The notes under the pieces are model-generated. The model saw nothing but the letters and a program-made list of their open reading frames with translations, made no database searches and was not told the origin of the DNA. This document shows, piece after piece, positions 3,945 through 29,295 of a stretch of 34,839 nt of DNA. Both the position numbers and the translations under genes were made by a program. This DNA is from Bacteroidota bacterium (GTDB lineage: Bacteria; Bacteroidota; Bacteroidia; Chitinophagales; Saprospiraceae): positions 1-34,839 of the forward strand of contig JAJRXG010000134.1 of the NCBI GenBank assembly GCA_024276375.1, in the 5' to 3' direction. The stretch's first letter is position 1. Each line of letters starts with the position of its first letter.

Positions 3945-5101
3945 GATGTATAGTTTACTGATTTAGTGTTATGCTTGTTTAATTTTTTTGATCTAGTTCC
4001 CTTTAGGGACAATGTTACCTTATACTTTGCCCCTTGATGTTCAGTTTTAAGATTAAACCGGTTGGGGTATAATATATTCAACCGTCTGCGTACATTGGTC
4101 AATCCGATACCGCCTACTTTCTTGTCTGAATAATTAGGTTTGAGACTATGACCGGGGACTCCATTGACAACTTGCAATACGATATCAGTTTCATTGATCT
4201 TGAGAATGATATTGATATATCCCGATTTCAACTCGTGATCAAGGCCATGCTTAAAACTATTCTCCAAGAAAGGGATAAACAATAGGGGTGCAATCTTATG
4301 TCCTTGCGGGTCTCCTATGATATCGATGGACATCTTGAAGTTTTCTCCATGACGGATTTGCTCGAGCTCTAGGTAGCTCCGGATAAACACGATCTCTTGT
4401 TGAAGAGAGATGGTTCTCTCGTTGCTTTCGTACAACATATATCGCATCATGTCGGACAATTTGAGAACGATCTCAGGAGCCTTATCGGATTTTTTCAAGG
4501 TAAGTGCGTATAAGCTGTTGAGCGTATTGAAGAAGAAGTGTGGGTTTATTTGATTTTTAAGAAATCGCAATTCGGATTTCAGGTTCTGCCGATGTAGATC
4601 CTTCCGCTCACGTTGATGCACCATCCAATCGTTGATGATTTGATATATAGATGACGAAAAAGCGACAAAAAAGATATTTAAGAAGTAGGCAGCATTATTG
4701 CGCAACGTAAATACTGCATCAAAAGGTGCTCTTTTGTAAGTGTGTATCATATAATGCATGATCACCTCCAATGGAGTCACAATAAAGCACATAAGAACTA
4801 ATGTAAAAAGATAAGTGTAGAGTCGATCCTTCTTGAGCAGTCTAGGAAAAAGGTAGTAAATATTGATGTTGACAACAACGATAAAAAAAATGAGACGGAT
4901 ACCATGCTTGATGAGTTTTTCTCCCAAGTCAGCATTGCCATCAGCGATGACTAGAAACAAGTAAAACACCACCCAAAAGAACAAATGATAGAGCAATCCT
5001 CGCTGAACCGCTTTCTCAAAAGTCTCATAAAAAGTATTGTTATTGTCTAATCCCGCAAACATTGGATTAAACTTAACTTTAAGAATAGACTTCGAGAACA
5101 A
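3941..5101 (-). CDS. LytS/YehU-type sensor histidine kinase
   Basis: 386 residues. Four membrane segments lie near 36-53, 67-84, 94-113 and 136-154, with short external loops and no large periplasmic sensor domain. The cytoplasmic part is the His_kinase type (PF06580-like): LKNQINPHFFFNTLNSLYAL with phospho-acceptor His188, the N box FIPFLENSFKHG (Asn281) and the G box GGIGLTNVRRRL (330-341). It would phosphorylate the LytTR regulator encoded next to it. A second Met at residue 14 (MFAGLDNNN) is a possible alternative start. The promoter must lie in the 430-bp gap shared with folE, which holds an inverted repeat TGTTATCAC-N11-GTGATAACA and a mobile element. Confidence 0.9.
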   Translation of the reverse strand: MFSKSILKVKFNPMFAGLDNNNTFYETFEKAVQRGLLYHLFFWVVFYLFLVIADGNADLGEKLIKHGIRLIFFIVVVNINIYYLFPRLLKKDRLYTYLFTLVLMCFIVTPLEVIMHYMIHTYKRAPFDAVFTLRNNAAYFLNIFFVAFSSSIYQIINDWMVHQRERKDLHRQNLKSELRFLKNQINPHFFFNTLNSLYALTLKKSDKAPEIVLKLSDMMRYMLYESNERTISLQQEIVFIRSYLELEQIRHGENFKMSIDIIGDPQGHKIAPLLFIPFLENSFKHGLDHELKSGYINIILKINETDIVLQVVNGVPGHSLKPNYSDKKVGGIGLTNVRRRLNILYPNRFNLKTEHQGAKYKVTLSLKGTRSKKLNKHNTKSVNYTS

Positions 5102-5183
5102 AAACAGATGAATTCTGTAATCAATTCGATCAAAGTTGTGTTATAGACGGTTTATGAAAATGCATTTTAGCATATTGTACTAT

Positions 5184-5212
5184 TGTTATCACTATTTTTG
5201 CCCGTGATAACA
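5184..5212. promoter_or_regulatory. 9-bp perfect inverted repeat upstream of the LytS kinase gene
   Basis: TGTTATCAC and GTGATAACA separated by 11 bases, about 83 bp upstream of the kinase start codon. The arms extend further (CTATTG / CAATAG) if a two-base bulge is allowed. Position and symmetry suit a dimeric-repressor operator or an RNA hairpin in the kinase leader. There is no T-tract after it on either strand, so an intrinsic terminator is unlikely. Confidence 0.4.
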
Positions 5213-5325
5213 GCAATAGATTTTTCTATGATGCAGAATACAAAGCTGCGACCTCACGCGAACATAATTCATGCTTCGGGGGTTATTTTAACGACGTACA
5301 GATGTGTACCGGATTGCAGAGGTAA

Positions 5326-5486
5326 GTTACTATTCAGGTAGGCGTCATTTTGGCTAAAAGAAACACTTTCCTCGTCATATTTCCGCTATTTTTTTCGCCG
5401 TAGCGCTGCTATGCCTCAAAAAATAAGCGTCATCTGACGAAAAAATTGCCATTTTTTATCTCAAAAGCACCCTCCTGAATAGTAAC
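5326..5486 (+). mobile_element. palindromic MITE, copy 1 (161 bp)
   Basis: First of four closely similar elements in the window. The ends are GTTACTATTCAGG and its exact complement CCTGAATAGTAAC. It is flanked by AGAGGTAA (5318-5325) and AGAGGTAG (5487-5494), an 8-bp direct repeat with one mismatch, as expected for an older target-site duplication. No ORF of note inside. It lies 48 bp upstream of the folE start codon, in the divergent lytS/folE promoter region, so the folE promoter is either squeezed between element and gene or supplied from within or beyond the element. Confidence 0.88.
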
Positions 5487-5534
5487 AGAGGTAGATGAGT
5501 TTTAATAAAAATCGAATGTTGTATAATTGTAACC

Positions 5535-6131
5535 ATGGGATATAGCAAAAAAGAAGAATACACAGAAGAAACGACGGAAGCGCTGATCAAAAGCTATGAA
5601 CGTATATTAATGGAAATAAATGAAGATCCCAATCGCGAAGGATTGACCAAGACTCCTGAACGTGCAGCTAAGGCGATTCAATTTTTAACACATGGATATG
5701 ATCAGGATGCAGAATCTATACTGAGAAGTGCTTTGTTTCAAGAGGACTATAGTGAGATGGTTATAGTCAAAGACATAGAACTGTACTCTTTATGTGAACA
5801 TCATATTTTGCCTTTTTTTGGCAAAGCACATATTGCTTATATTCCCAATGGATACGTAGTAGGGTTGAGCAAGATACCACGTATTGTCGATGTTTTTGCT
5901 CGCAGATTGCAAGTTCAAGAGCGACTGACCGATCAAATACTACATTGTATCAATGATACGCTACGCCCCTTGGGAGTGGCTGTTGTCATAGAAGCAGCCC
6001 ATATGTGCATGATGATGCGTGGTGTTCAGAAGCAAAATTCCCTGACAACGACATCTGCATTTATCGGTGAATTTCATAAAGAAGAAACGAGGAGTGAATT
6101 TCTTAATTTAATTAGTTCAAACTTGAGATAG
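5535..6131 (+). CDS. folE: GTP cyclohydrolase I
   Basis: 198 residues, normal length. Converts GTP to 7,8-dihydroneopterin triphosphate, the first step of tetrahydrofolate (and pterin) synthesis. Zinc ligands are visible as Cys87 and His90 in [10 protein letters not shown] and Cys158 in HMCMMMRG. The substrate-binding segment [24 protein letters not shown] and the QERLTDQI helix are intact. It heads a compact plus-strand group with fabD (5 bp apart) and yqgE. folK and folD, also folate genes, lie elsewhere in the window but not in the same operon. The start ATG has no Shine-Dalgarno. A MITE copy ends 48 bp upstream and may have altered its promoter. Confidence 0.97.
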
Positions 6132-13999: not shown

Positions 14000-14048
14000 C
14001 CGCCGCTATGGTTTATTGCTAGTCTCCGGAGATATTGTTTACTAAAAT

Positions 14049-14209
14049 GTTACTATTCAGGTAGGCGTCATTTTGGCTAAAAAAAACACTTTCCCCGTCA
14101 TATTTTCACTATTTTATTCGCCGTAGCGCTGCTATGTCTCAAAAAATAAGCGTCATCTGACGAAAAAATTGCCTTTTTCTATCTCAAAAGCACCCTCCTG
14201 AATAGTAAC
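14049..14209 (+). mobile_element. palindromic MITE, copy 2 (161 bp)
   Basis: Same element as copy 1, with intact 13-bp ends GTTACTATTCAGG / CCTGAATAGTAAC. It is flanked by a perfect 8-bp direct repeat ACTAAAAT (14041-14048 and 14210-14217). It lies between the divergent sigma-factor gene and ade, close to the sigma gene. Confidence 0.92.
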
Positions 14210-14595
14210 ACTAAAATACTTAGTTCTGAAATATCTTGCCATTAACTTTCAAAAATATACTTGCCTATATAATAGTAGATGATCTATAACCCCTAAATGG
14301 TGTATCAAAGGTGAGGTCTTTTCATAAAGAAACTCAATATCCGTTGTTATCATAGCTACTCACCTGCCATCGCGTCCAATCCAGATACCTCTTCGGTCTC
14401 TTCAATACCATAAATGATAACAACAATATTAAATGGACAGTCGCAACGATTTTAACTATACCTCTCAAAATACACACTTCCTTGAAAGTAGCCTTACTTT
14501 TGTGACAGAAGAAGGCTACCACTCAGTAGAATAGCGGGATAAAACAAACAAAAGAGGATCGACATTTCGGATTCATCCTACATTAATCGTTCATT
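14210..14595. other. ade upstream region
   Basis: 386 bp after the MITE with no convincing gene. The minus-strand 62-residue ORF has one hydrophobic stretch but no homology I recognise. An 8-bp inverted repeat GTAGCCTT (14488-14495) / AAGGCTAC (14512-14519) sits about 80 bp before the ade start and could be a regulatory hairpin or operator. A TACTTTTG (14495-14502) inside it fits the -7 box, but no TTTG is seen at proper spacing. Confidence 0.3.
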
Positions 14596-16221: not shown

Positions 16222-16277
16222 TAGTGCTCTTGAAAAATGAGCCCTCTCCGCTGCGTGACTATTTTATCAAAATAGAT

Positions 16278-16393
16278 GTTACTATTCAGGTAGGCGTCAT
16301 TTTGGCTAAAAAAAACACTTTCCCCGTCATATTTCCGCTATTTTTTCTGCCGTAGCGCTGCTATGCTTCAAAAGCACCCTCCTGAATAGTAAC
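16278..16393 (+). mobile_element. palindromic MITE, copy 3 (116 bp, internal deletion)
   Basis: Intact 13-bp ends and a perfect 8-bp target duplication AAATAGAT (16270-16277 and 16394-16401). Forty-five bases of the right arm are missing compared with the other copies. The missing piece is bounded in full copies by the repeated heptamer CTCAAAA, which points to a deletion between short repeats after insertion or in the source copy. It lies between the convergent genes ade and prmA. Confidence 0.92.
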
Positions 16394-16417
16394 AAATAGA
16401 TTAATCTGAAGGAGATT

Positions 16418-18334: not shown

Positions 18335-19387
18335 TTGAAACTAGTAAAATTGTTCATCATCTTGCTAACGGTATCACTTTTTACCAATTGCAGTACCGGA
18401 AAAAGTAGTTCAACGGCTTCTCCCAAAAGCGAACTTACGATAGCATTTGGATCCTGTAACCGTCAGTTGGAAACTCAACCCATATGGAAATCCGTATCTA
18501 AAAACAAACCGGATCTATGGATTTGGTTAGGAGATATCGTATATAGCGATACGGAGGATATGGGAAAGATGAAGCAGGACTATGATACCCAAAAGCACCA
18601 TCCGGACTATGCTCCATTTGCCCAAGAAACCAAGATTCTGGGAATCTGGGATGACCATGATTACGGAATCAATAATGGTGGAAAAGAGTATCCAAAAAAA
18701 GACTCCAGCAAGTTGTTGTTATTTGATTTTTTAGATCTCCTTCAAGACAGCATAAATATGGCACATGATGGAGCTTATCAATCGCATACAGTAAGCAGTG
18801 GCAATCTGAAAATAAAAATACTCTTGCTGGATACCCGTTATTTTAGAGATACTCCGCATACAACAAGAGCTTCAATCCTAGGACAGAAACAATGGCAATG
18901 GCTCGTGGGTGAATTACGGGAAAATGATGCAGATGTCCATATTTTAGCTAGTGGCGTGCAGATACTCCCCGAAGAACATGAATTTGAGAAATGGGCAAAT
19001 TTTGGAACAGATAGAACTAGACTTTTACAGATATTGGACATTATGGAGGTCAACAACCCGATATTGTTGTCCGGAGATAGACACCTTGCAGAGGTGTCTT
19101 TGGCTCCATTCCCTCAGTCCGGCAGGCCGATTGTTGAGATTACATCCAGTGGTTTGACACACGCATACACTGATTTTACGAGTGAGGCCAACCAATATCG
19201 TATCGGACAGGTCTATGCTGACAAAAATTTCGGTTTGCTAAAAATCAACAAACAGGCTAATACTGTCAACTATACAATAGAAATACGTACTGAATCCAAT
19301 AAAAAAGTTGCTTCCGTAGATTCCGACGAATTGAGTTTAATCCTCAAGCAAAGAGGAGCTAAATCAAAATCCGGTACATCTAAATAA
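18335..19387 (+). CDS. PhoD-like phosphatase lipoprotein
   Basis: 350 residues starting at a TTG. This start gives a good lipoprotein signal (KLFIILLTVSLFTNC, lipobox Cys19), and no in-frame ATG lies upstream, so TTG is accepted. The body is a metallophosphatase of the PhoD/alkaline phosphatase D type: IAFGSCNRQ (37-44), WIWLGDIVYSD (63-72), ILGIWDDHDYG (101-111) and the C-terminal LLSGDRHLAEVS. It would hydrolyse phosphomono- or diesters outside the cytoplasmic membrane; the substrate is unknown. It lacks the long N-terminal beta-domain of classical Bacillus PhoD. The last codon and stop codon lie inside the target-site duplication of MITE copy 4. Confidence 0.85.
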   Translation: MKLVKLFIILLTVSLFTNCSTGKSSSTASPKSELTIAFGSCNRQLETQPIWKSVSKNKPDLWIWLGDIVYSDTEDMGKMKQDYDTQKHHPDYAPFAQETKILGIWDDHDYGINNGGKEYPKKDSSKLLLFDFLDLLQDSINMAHDGAYQSHTVSSGNLKIKILLLDTRYFRDTPHTTRASILGQKQWQWLVGELRENDADVHILASGVQILPEEHEFEKWANFGTDRTRLLQILDIMEVNNPILLSGDRHLAEVSLAPFPQSGRPIVEITSSGLTHAYTDFTSEANQYRIGQVYADKNFGLLKINKQANTVNYTIEIRTESNKKVASVDSDELSLILKQRGAKSKSGTSK

Positions 19388-19389
19388 AA

Positions 19390-19550
19390 GTTACTATTCA
19401 GGTAGGCGTCATTTTGGCTAAAAAAAACACTTTCCCCGTCATATTTCCGCTATTTTTTTCGCCGTAGCGCTGCTATACCTCAAAAAACAAGCATCATCTG
19501 ACGAAAAAATTGCCTTTTTTTATCTCAAAAGCACCCTCCTGAATAGAAAC
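19390..19550 (+). mobile_element. palindromic MITE, copy 4 (161 bp)
   Basis: Full-length copy with left end GTTACTATTCAGG; the right end has one change (GAATAGAAAC instead of GAATAGTAAC). Perfect 8-bp duplication AAATAAAA (19382-19389 and 19551-19558). The left duplicate contains the AAA codon and TAA stop of the PhoD-like gene, so insertion occurred at the stop codon and the duplication kept the gene intact. The following 220 bp up to bshC hold nothing recognisable. Confidence 0.92.
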
Positions 19551-19774
19551 AAATAAAAAGGAAATAACTATGCTTATGGCATGTTATACGGATTCTCAAA
19601 TACATACTTGACTATATCCGATTCAATGAGGAAAGTGTATTCACGTCTATTTGGATTATGAGTTTATAACAAAGATTAAGTTGTATTTATCACTTGATAT
19701 GGAAGGGATAACCACCAAGGTGAACAATTTAGCGTAATCTTGCATTTTTTTGTGCAGTACTTACCGCGACCAAT

Positions 19775-26676: not shown

Positions 26677-29295
26677 CTAAAAACTGATTCCCCTGCGTTG
26701 GTATCCTTTTTCGGATTTAAAGACTTCCAATGTAGCGGTCACATCTACCTTTTTGATCAGGTAGATATATCGTGAACCTTCTCTGAACCCTTCAGTCCCA
26801 AGTCTCAAATTTTGCTGTTTGATAACCTCGTAGCAATATTGTCTTACGCGGCGTGCATTGCCAAAATGTTTGTCTCGACGCAGATGTTCCGACGCGAGTT
26901 GCTCATGAAGCAATTGAAGCGCGGAGGAAGAAATCTTGTAACCTTCTCTCTGAATAAAGGACAGGGCTATGTCCCTCAATTGTTCGGAACTAAAATCCGG
27001 AAATGTAAGGTAGTGATCAAATCTTGATTTTAGTCCGGGATTGCCGGATAAGAACTGCTCCATTTCCGCGGGATATCCGGCAACAAAGACATAAAAGTCA
27101 CCCCGCTTGTCTTCCATTAATTTGAGTAGTGTTTGAATAGCTTCATCGCCAAAGTCATTGGAGGAGCCTACTTTGGTTAAAGCATAAGCTTCATCGATAA
27201 ACAACACACCACCGAGGGCTGATTCTACGACATCCGTCGTTTTAATAGCTGTCTGACCTACGTAACCTGCCACCAATCCCTGTCGATCAGTCTCAATAAT
27301 ATGACCTTTGCTCAAAACCCCGAGGCTTTTAAAAATTTTTGCAAGAATCCGAGTGACCGTAGTCTTCCCCGTGCCCGGATTACCGACCAAAATAGTGTGC
27401 ATATTGAGACCTCCGGTCACTTTTACTTTGTTGGACAGTCGATATCGAACGATACGTACAAGTTGATGGATCTTTTCTTTGATTTGATCCAATCCAATGA
27501 GCGCATCCAACTCATCAAGGGCTATTTTTAATTGTTCAGAATCGATCTGTATGTTTTCAATTTTTTGATCTTTGTGAGTAGAAATTCGAAGTACATCACG
27601 TTGATGTATTCTCTGCAAGGCCTCATCTGTTGGAGTCTTGGTCACGATTTCTTCCATCAGACGAATCCCCATATTGATTTTAGCTTTTTCCAACAGACGC
27701 TTGATGTATCTTGCATTGCCAAAATTTTCATTCCGATTACGGAAAGTCTCTTGAATGATGCCCTCAAGAACATCCCGAGCTTTGGGTGTGAGTGTTACAT
27801 TTAACTCTTTGCATTGTACATCCATAATTTGGTACAATTCCGAGAGCGCATAGTCGGGAAAATGATAGTGATATTTGAATCTTGAACGCAATCCCGGATT
27901 GGAGGCGATGAAGCTGTCCATATGCTTGGGATATCCGGCGACAACAACCATGATCTCAGAATCTGGATCCCCCATTTCTTTTACTAAAAGCTCTATTACT
28001 TCTTTTCCAAAATCCTTAGTATCATCACCTGCCCTTGCCAAAGAGTAGGCCTCATCTATAAACAACACACCTCCCTTGGCCTTGCGAATGGCTTCTTTCA
28101 CTTTAGGTGCTGTTTGACCGATATACTCCCCTACCAAATCCACTCGATCTACTTCGTGTACATGTCCTTTGGTCAGCAACCCCATACTGCGATAGATGGC
28201 TCCCATCATCCTGGCCACCGTTGTTTTTCCAGTACCCGGATTGCCTGAAAACACACAATGCAACCCCATACGGCTATCCGATTCCAATCCACGATCTACG
28301 CGCATCTGTAGAAACCGTATGTATTTAGTGTGCTCGGATATCTGTCTCTTGATCTCCCTCAACCCTACCATCGCATTCAATTGTTTGAATGCCTCTTGAC
28401 TACTAAGTCCAATACTCGTGTCAGGTATGATCGGATTGTCTGTCTCGCCATCCTGGAAAACAGATATATCCCCTTCAACAAAATCATCACCTATCAGAAA
28501 GGTAGATTCGGAAATCAGCTTGTCTTGAAAAACCACTTCAATCGAATAAAGCCCTTTGCGCCAAGATCCTTTAACATTGGAGCCCCAACCGGCTGAAATA
28601 TGAAGTTCATCATTGCCCTTACTCATTTTCTGGAGTCGAATCACTTCACCTTTCAATTCTCTTCCCTCATTGCAGAATCGTATAAACAGCTCACTATACC
28701 ACTCGTGATCAGGCAACAGATTGACGACCGTAAGCTCTGCAAAGACATATCTCGTCTCCTTTTGAGAAAACTCAGTATAGTAAATGTGATCATCCGTACG
28801 TTCATTGTGATCAAATTCTCCTTCATAAAACCCAATAGATTGAACCTTGAGTGCATGCGATACATCCTTATCACAATGGCTTTTTAAATCTTCAACGTAA
28901 AAATATTTAGTTGCAATTTTTTTCTGCTCGATGTACACTTCCCATACATATTTTCCGCATTGCCAAAAACTCCCTTTGTCCTTGTGTCCCCAGCCCTCTC
29001 TGATGTAAACCATATGGTCATGCCGGGATACCTGACGATTGATCTGTAGCGTACAAACGTTCTTACGAACCCGCCCCAATTTAATGCACTTGAGGGTTAG
29101 ATTGACATTCCAAGTCTCTTTTTCAAAGACCTTGTTGATTAAGGCAAGTTCTACGTAGATATAGCTTGTTCGACTTTTTTCAAATACTTGTCTGTATTTC
29201 TTCCGATTATGGGCCAACCACTCTGTTGATGCATATATCTTGAGGCTATGGTACTTATATTTTGCTGCAACTTGCTTATTGTCGGATTGTATCAA
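26677..29295 (-). CDS. Double-AAA+ ATPase of the CbxX/CfxQ (SpoVK/EccA-like) type
   Basis: 872 residues. Two tandem N-terminal modules of about 120-130 residues (about 15-136 and 150-272) resemble each other: each has E-L-(A/T)-x-(I/V)-N early, a GWG segment (REGWGHKDKGSFW / SAGWGSNVKGSWR) in the middle and a final F-x-x-x-D. Two AAA+ domains follow: AAA1 with Walker A GNPGTGKT (351-358) and Walker B LFIDEA (411-416), AAA2 with Walker A GNPGTGKT (638-645) and Walker B LFIDEA (698-703). Both have GYIGQTA/GYVGQTA loops and sensor/arginine segments NPGL(R/K)SRF, the pattern of CbbX, SpoVK and EccA. Such ATPases usually form hexamers that remodel a partner protein. No Rubisco or type VII secretion gene is nearby, so the partner is unknown. 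No signal peptide. Confidence 0.85.
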   Translation of the reverse strand: MIQSDNKQVAAKYKYHSLKIYASTEWLAHNRKKYRQVFEKSRTSYIYVELALINKVFEKETWNVNLTLKCIKLGRVRKNVCTLQINRQVSRHDHMVYIREGWGHKDKGSFWQCGKYVWEVYIEQKKIATKYFYVEDLKSHCDKDVSHALKVQSIGFYEGEFDHNERTDDHIYYTEFSQKETRYVFAELTVVNLLPDHEWYSELFIRFCNEGRELKGEVIRLQKMSKGNDELHISAGWGSNVKGSWRKGLYSIEVVFQDKLISESTFLIGDDFVEGDISVFQDGETDNPIIPDTSIGLSSQEAFKQLNAMVGLREIKRQISEHTKYIRFLQMRVDRGLESDSRMGLHCVFSGNPGTGKTTVARMMGAIYRSMGLLTKGHVHEVDRVDLVGEYIGQTAPKVKEAIRKAKGGVLFIDEAYSLARAGDDTKDFGKEVIELLVKEMGDPDSEIMVVVAGYPKHMDSFIASNPGLRSRFKYHYHFPDYALSELYQIMDVQCKELNVTLTPKARDVLEGIIQETFRNRNENFGNARYIKRLLEKAKINMGIRLMEEIVTKTPTDEALQRIHQRDVLRISTHKDQKIENIQIDSEQLKIALDELDALIGLDQIKEKIHQLVRIVRYRLSNKVKVTGGLNMHTILVGNPGTGKTTVTRILAKIFKSLGVLSKGHIIETDRQGLVAGYVGQTAIKTTDVVESALGGVLFIDEAYALTKVGSSNDFGDEAIQTLLKLMEDKRGDFYVFVAGYPAEMEQFLSGNPGLKSRFDHYLTFPDFSSEQLRDIALSFIQREGYKISSSALQLLHEQLASEHLRRDKHFGNARRVRQYCYEVIKQQNLRLGTEGFREGSRYIYLIKKVDVTATLEVFKSEKGYQRRGISF

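Follow-up and report, generated by a model that had tools for sequence, protein, structure and literature searches.

A 161-bp palindrome without a gene of its own stands at positions 5326-5486 of the window, the whole stretch of 34,839 nucleotides analysed here, and recurs further along it. The question is what this palindrome is, and whether its fold serves the genes beside which it lies or the element itself. The original prediction had read it as one long imperfect palindrome, and this was borne out. The reverse complement matches end to end (70% identity, blastn E 1e-6), and the alignment of arm against arm scored 63, whereas 300 shuffles averaged -11 and reached 8 at most. The extended imperfect hairpin expected from it was also recovered, with -61.5 kcal/mol on the minus strand (z -7.5) and -51.2 on the plus strand (z -7.7), the z-scores being computed against dinucleotide shuffles of both strands; 0 of 200 shuffles were as good. 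The apex, placed near base 80, is TAGCGCTGCTA at bases 76-86 of 161 (centre 81), and CGTCAT was rightly counted three times in the plus strand (5343, 5373 and 5428). Two details required small corrections: among the arm sequences quoted, the copy at 5326-5486 has TAAAAGAAA where the consensus has TAAAAAAAA, and the copy at 16278 is a deletion form of 116 bp. The target duplications, the strand asymmetry and the relatives with other ends were absent from that prediction and were found here. The features of the window are as follows.

5326..5486, plus strand: full-length element, 161 bp, three changes from the genome consensus (plus is defined as the strand with the apex TAGCGCTGCTA)
5326..5338, plus strand: left terminal inverted repeat (TIR), GTTACTATTCAGG
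5474..5486, minus strand: right TIR, plus-strand reading CCTGAATAGTAAC
5318..5325, plus strand: left target duplication, AGAGGTAA
5487..5494, plus strand: right target duplication, AGAGGTAG, one mismatch
5349..5464, minus strand: conserved folded core, match to covariance model R1 with 47 bits
5401..5411, plus strand: apex TAGCGCTGCTA, stem TAGC/GCTA with a 3-base loop
14049..14209, plus strand: second full-length copy, duplication ACTAAAAT at 14041-14048 and 14210-14217, core match at 14072-14187 on the minus strand
16278..16393, plus strand: 116-bp copy flanked by the duplication AAATAGAT (16270-16277 and 16394-16401); two TCAAAA repeats delimit an internal deletion of its right arm
19390..19550, plus strand: third full-length copy, right TIR with one mismatch, core match at 19413-19528 on the minus strand
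19382-19389 and 19551-19558: duplication AAATAAAA of the third copy, the left one overlapping the stop codon of a PhoD-like gene

By its anatomy, the element at 5326-5486 is a non-autonomous mobile element, a MITE. This class is defined as short (70-300 bp) and without coding capacity (PMC3733652); the element falls within the size range, and the longest ORF wholly inside it has 25 aa. Its TIRs are a perfect 13 bp, and 8-bp target duplications flank all four copies of the window (one of 116 bp, the others full-length), three of them exactly. Both flanks were present for 68 copies, a few of them possibly entered once per strand; in 51, the duplications had no more than one mismatch, compared with 29 of 4556 flank pairs taken from different copies. 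The TIR, with at most one mismatch, matched the genome 128 + 124 times, versus 6 + 1 for a reversed control. At least 51 full-length copies were examined in this genome; they are consistently oriented and have 1-13 changes relative to their consensus, a pattern like that of a recent burst. Relatives of the same genus are about 70% identical, with synteny broken beside the insertions, which blocks an empty-site comparison, so the evidence of insertion is carried by the target duplications. The element had no match in the five same-genus genomes searched. A BLAST search of plasmids gave no match for the element or for one from Phaeodactylibacter, and BLAST gave none for plasmid or phage carriage of the element. 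Two pattern matches in viral contigs were not elements. Elsewhere in the window, an 872-aa protein (26677-29295, minus strand) contains two AAA ATPase modules, which form a diverged direct repeat (DNA repeats D2 and D3).

The genome, G000, also carries several variants, and the deletion forms show that the palindrome rearranges. A 55-bp derivative that keeps only the ends gave eight pattern matches (L091-L098; one measures 57 bp), six of them with exact duplications of their own. The 55-bp form has therefore itself moved, and the core is thus unnecessary for the transposition reaction itself. At 55-57 bp, this core-less form, present in at least eight places, lies below the MITE size range and ranks among the smallest mobile pieces of DNA that could be encountered. 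A second subfamily has the TIR GTAACTATTCAGC, a length of mostly 162 bp, exact 8-bp duplications and the same core fold (L200-L204, L207 and L215, on contigs C58, C182, C239, C282, C412, C171 and C54). Additionally, two loci of a further type (L216 and L218, on contigs C228 and C92), with ends GTTACTAATCATTGGRTATG, gave the best core-model scores of the genome (54-56 bits); they have no clear duplication, so their true ends may differ. Two other rearrangements were observed. In one element, of a different type, the right end (L052:145-186, contig C40) has a 29-bp tandem duplication of the terminal 13-bp repeat, and L037, L101 and L111, from G007 and a relative, have an insert of about 24-25 bp (…GTGCTGAGCTTGCCGAAGC…) to the right of the apex, which is itself palindrome-like.

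For the source of movement, we searched this genome (414 contigs, 93% complete) for an autonomous IS with the same TIRs, and none was found. Unpaired TIR ends, considered as candidates, were truncated or rearranged copies or contig ends instead. Contigs such as C293, C42, C186 and C399 often end at or within elements; the repeats thus break up the assembly, in which an autonomous partner may lie hidden. The IS66 domain PF03050 had no match in the genome, and no IS66 element with these TIRs was present among 30 loci inspected from 198 genomes of the family. The IS66 family resembles the element in its 8-bp duplications: an IS66 element of a family relative (L065) has the TIR GTAACTGGTTAGCC, which begins GTAAC, as does the TIR of the second subfamily, and an exact 8-bp duplication, and another begins GTAAGCGTA, also with an exact 8-bp duplication. 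The main TIR, however, begins GTTAC, and the element has no transposase. An IS66-type enzyme may be the mover or the parent.

The exact apex pattern was searched across one genome per species (85,462 species) and resulted in 41 loci, hosted by Saprospiraceae, Pontibacter, Botryobacter, Microscilla, Flavobacteriaceae and Chitinophagales, and by MAGs named Desulfobulbaceae, Desulfuromonadaceae and Pseudomonadota. Almost every one of these loci is a palindrome of about 158-164 bp centred on the apex, and a few reach about 185 bp. The pattern fixed the apex in this first sample, and apex variation is known from other matches only, such as GATGC-TGG-GCATC in L033. Saprospiraceae relatives, the family being judged by record names, match the element mainly near the apex. 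The TIRs of the relatives are GAGCATGTTTRRA-like, GAAGTTGTTTAA, AGTGCCAAGGCATAATTA and GAGGCTGTCCGAGAA, with GAAACTGTCTGG from a later search. Their duplications, where readable, are of 3 bp (8/13, 8/18 and 4/5 exact at length 3), whereas the family studied here gave 18/29 exact at length 8 in the same test. The GAG..TGT TIRs with a 3-bp duplication we take to suggest IS5-family transposases. These relatives agree with the element in core fold and total length and differ from it in TIR sequence and duplication length.

A covariance model built from the GAGCATGTTTRRA-like elements only recognised the minus strand of the full-length copies in the window with 45-47 bits (E about 2e-9 to 8e-9). 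Matches of the model numbered 132 in this genome, whose copies it was not built from; a Phaeodactylibacter MAG had 137, a Microscilla genome 130, Flavilitoribacter nigricans 91 and a Desulfuromonadaceae MAG 17. These figures are matches rather than exact copy counts, as palindromes can match both strands. In a model census of 397 Bacteroidota genomes, with nine candidates scored per genome, at least eight were reported. Many members come from MAGs, and binning errors may lie behind some of the assignments to Desulfobacterota or Pseudomonadota that depend on a single contig, although several matches per MAG and the Geobacter report discussed below support them. The ends are exchangeable and the core is not: the outer 20 bp or so, which form the transposon ends and the stem base, would vary with the transposase family, whereas the inner rod-like hairpin of about 120 bp is conserved, with its internal loops fixed. 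Judging from the model scores, a convergent, separate origin of some differently ended cores is unlikely. A common core with quite different ends in distant bacteria implies that something preserves the fold while the moving machinery changes.

The proposed hairpin called for compensatory changes between the arms, and these are strongly present across diverged elements. In a set of 32 elements less than 90% identical, with the alignment fitted to the model and a null that keeps the tree and the substitutions, 18 of 41 pairs covary at E<0.05, and standard pairs fill 1128 cells, compared with 581 +/- 32 under the null. Eight of about 6400 other column pairs passed the threshold, several of them mutually opposite in internal loops. 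In the 23 elements not used for training, pairing holds in 85.6% of cells, versus 62.7% when shuffled and 44-54% when slid, and 29 of the 41 pairs show two-sided exchange. A broad MAFFT alignment, in which the arms were shifted, was left out of the pair counts. The fold is also polar. With orientation set from the apex alone, the minus strand has 141 G.U versus 24 A.C and 59 G.A versus 11 U.C oppositions, its fold is the more stable one in 24 of 24 elements, and 2x2 GA/GA and 3x3 GAR/RAA loops occur at fixed positions. This strand asymmetry is evidence against selection for a DNA cruciform; a cruciform would use both strands, so the polarity indicates a single-stranded one. Covariation, G.U pairs, G.A loops and strand preference together suggest that a single-stranded fold is under selection. 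This is most likely RNA, which is favoured by the share of G.U, about 12% of pairs. No Rfam 15 family reached its gathering score in the window, and seven loci gave no relevant Rfam match at E up to 1.

Paired changes might also come from an ordinary IS-derived palindrome whose arms are corrected by template switching alone, without selection on the fold. The deletion forms do show rearrangement, and arm correction would yield paired changes too. However, such a palindrome should have near-perfect arms and no strand preference, and the elements instead conserve purine-purine loops at fixed places and wobbles on one strand, despite unrelated ends; we disfavour this explanation as highly improbable. 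Folded single-stranded DNA is a different matter: the minus strand could be recognised as a hairpin at replication forks or during transposition or transfer, with RNA uninvolved. DNA folding parameters reproduce the strand preference seen with RNA parameters, tandem G.A pairs are stable in DNA too, and in the complete genome G289 the model strand lies on the G-rich strand of the replichore in eight of nine copies. That bias was absent in G167 and in 51 copies of the genome studied here (mean skew -0.004, p 0.76), so it is possibly due to chance in G289; the other 62 loci were marginal (p 0.049). With target duplications that point to double-strand DDE transposition, and with the G.U share given above, we regard recognition as single-stranded DNA as unlikely.

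The original prediction had suggested that the element may be a portable regulator. On this reading, every copy would end, cleave or stabilise its host transcript, as Correia elements do in Neisseria through RNase III. The hairpin is stable on both strands, the Correia elements provide a precedent (PMC2649163), and the copies are mostly intergenic, between divergent, co-directional and convergent genes, and often upstream of genes (one lies 49 bp before folE). Nevertheless, no intrinsic terminator, that is, a G+C-rich hairpin followed by a T run, was present in 5100-5700. With genes called by ORF length only, neither an orientation bias relative to flanking genes (12 to 5 in this genome, 13 to 12 elsewhere, pooled p 0.28) nor a preference for gene 3' ends was observed. 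Moreover, pairing was kept in 36% of the 107 distinct substitutions of the own-genome copies versus 33% by chance (p 0.15), a number that gives this neutral-decay test modest power; when every occurrence was counted, it was kept in 43% versus 38% (p 0.04). There is no detectable constraint on pairing after insertion, and individual insertions are therefore not evidently selected for the hairpin. The portable regulator is thus unsupported, and we consider it distinctly unlikely. Given pairing at the chance rate, no gene-orientation or consistent replication bias and no terminator, selection appears to act on still-spreading lineages and not on each insertion, so the fold probably serves the persistence or spread of the element itself.

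The reading that we consider probable is that of a non-autonomous DDE-type MITE, a local branch of a superfamily with exchangeable ends, whose inner fold is selected in single-stranded form, most likely as RNA. A transposase acting in trans would move the gene-less element through its 13-bp TIRs, with 8-bp duplications. Across the broad superfamily, the ends would swap between transposase families while the inner hairpin stays, and selection would act on one strand of this hairpin (here the minus strand) in lineages that keep spreading rather than at each insertion site. The role of the core may lie in persistence, in control of spread or in transfer between genomes. More tentatively, the element could be an RNA module of defined structure that spreads in the form of a DNA transposon; the fold would then be the conserved and inherited unit and would persist across phyla as the stem base adopts the ends of the available transposase (IS5-like or IS66-like).

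Among known repeats, the Correia elements of Neisseria have a target duplication of TA, compared with 8 bp here. The Correia repeat enclosed elements, or NEMIS, are restricted to Neisseria, form classes of 153-157 and 104-108 bp, and are acted on by RNase III, as has been shown; they share with the element similar size classes, TIRs, target duplication, a palindromic transcript and internal deletion forms, whereas their core end motifs CCGGTACGG and TCAGGACAA are absent from it (PMC2649163). They are the nearest analogue in behaviour, with different ends and core (PMC2649163; review PMC10969869). REP and the GTAG- and CGTC-tagged repeats are likewise multicopy intergenic palindromes, and GTAG and CGTC strings occur in the element too; REPs, however, have 20-40 bp and neither TIRs nor target duplications, whereas the element has 161 bp and both (PMC3733652). 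A likeness in sequence was seen with the "24 predicted short RNA elements" of Geobacter metallireducens, an intergenic multicopy family reported in 2009 with the central palindrome GRCGTAGCGCTGCTACGCC (PMC2700814, Additional file 4). Compared at the apex only, the core GCCGTAGCGCTGCTATGCC is alike at 17 of 19 positions, and the authors of that study call their elements RNA; the legend of the file mentions no TIRs, target duplications or Bacteroidota (PMC2700814). The central palindrome had been noted there before; the elements described here form a superfamily of MITEs whose fold is conserved and polar and whose ends can be exchanged.

These results bear on how small bacterial repeats are understood. 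The usual view of bacterial MITEs is that they are insertion sequences in decay, with debris between their ends; in the elements described here, it is the inner part that is conserved and the ends that change. If the fold is indeed RNA, the elements would represent an RNA family absent from the catalogues, of which some genomes hold well over a hundred copies. The coexistence of core-bearing (161 bp) and core-less (55 bp) forms in one genome offers a natural comparison. An old question thereby becomes testable: whether small bacterial repeats have a function of their own, one that concerns the element rather than the host gene beside it.
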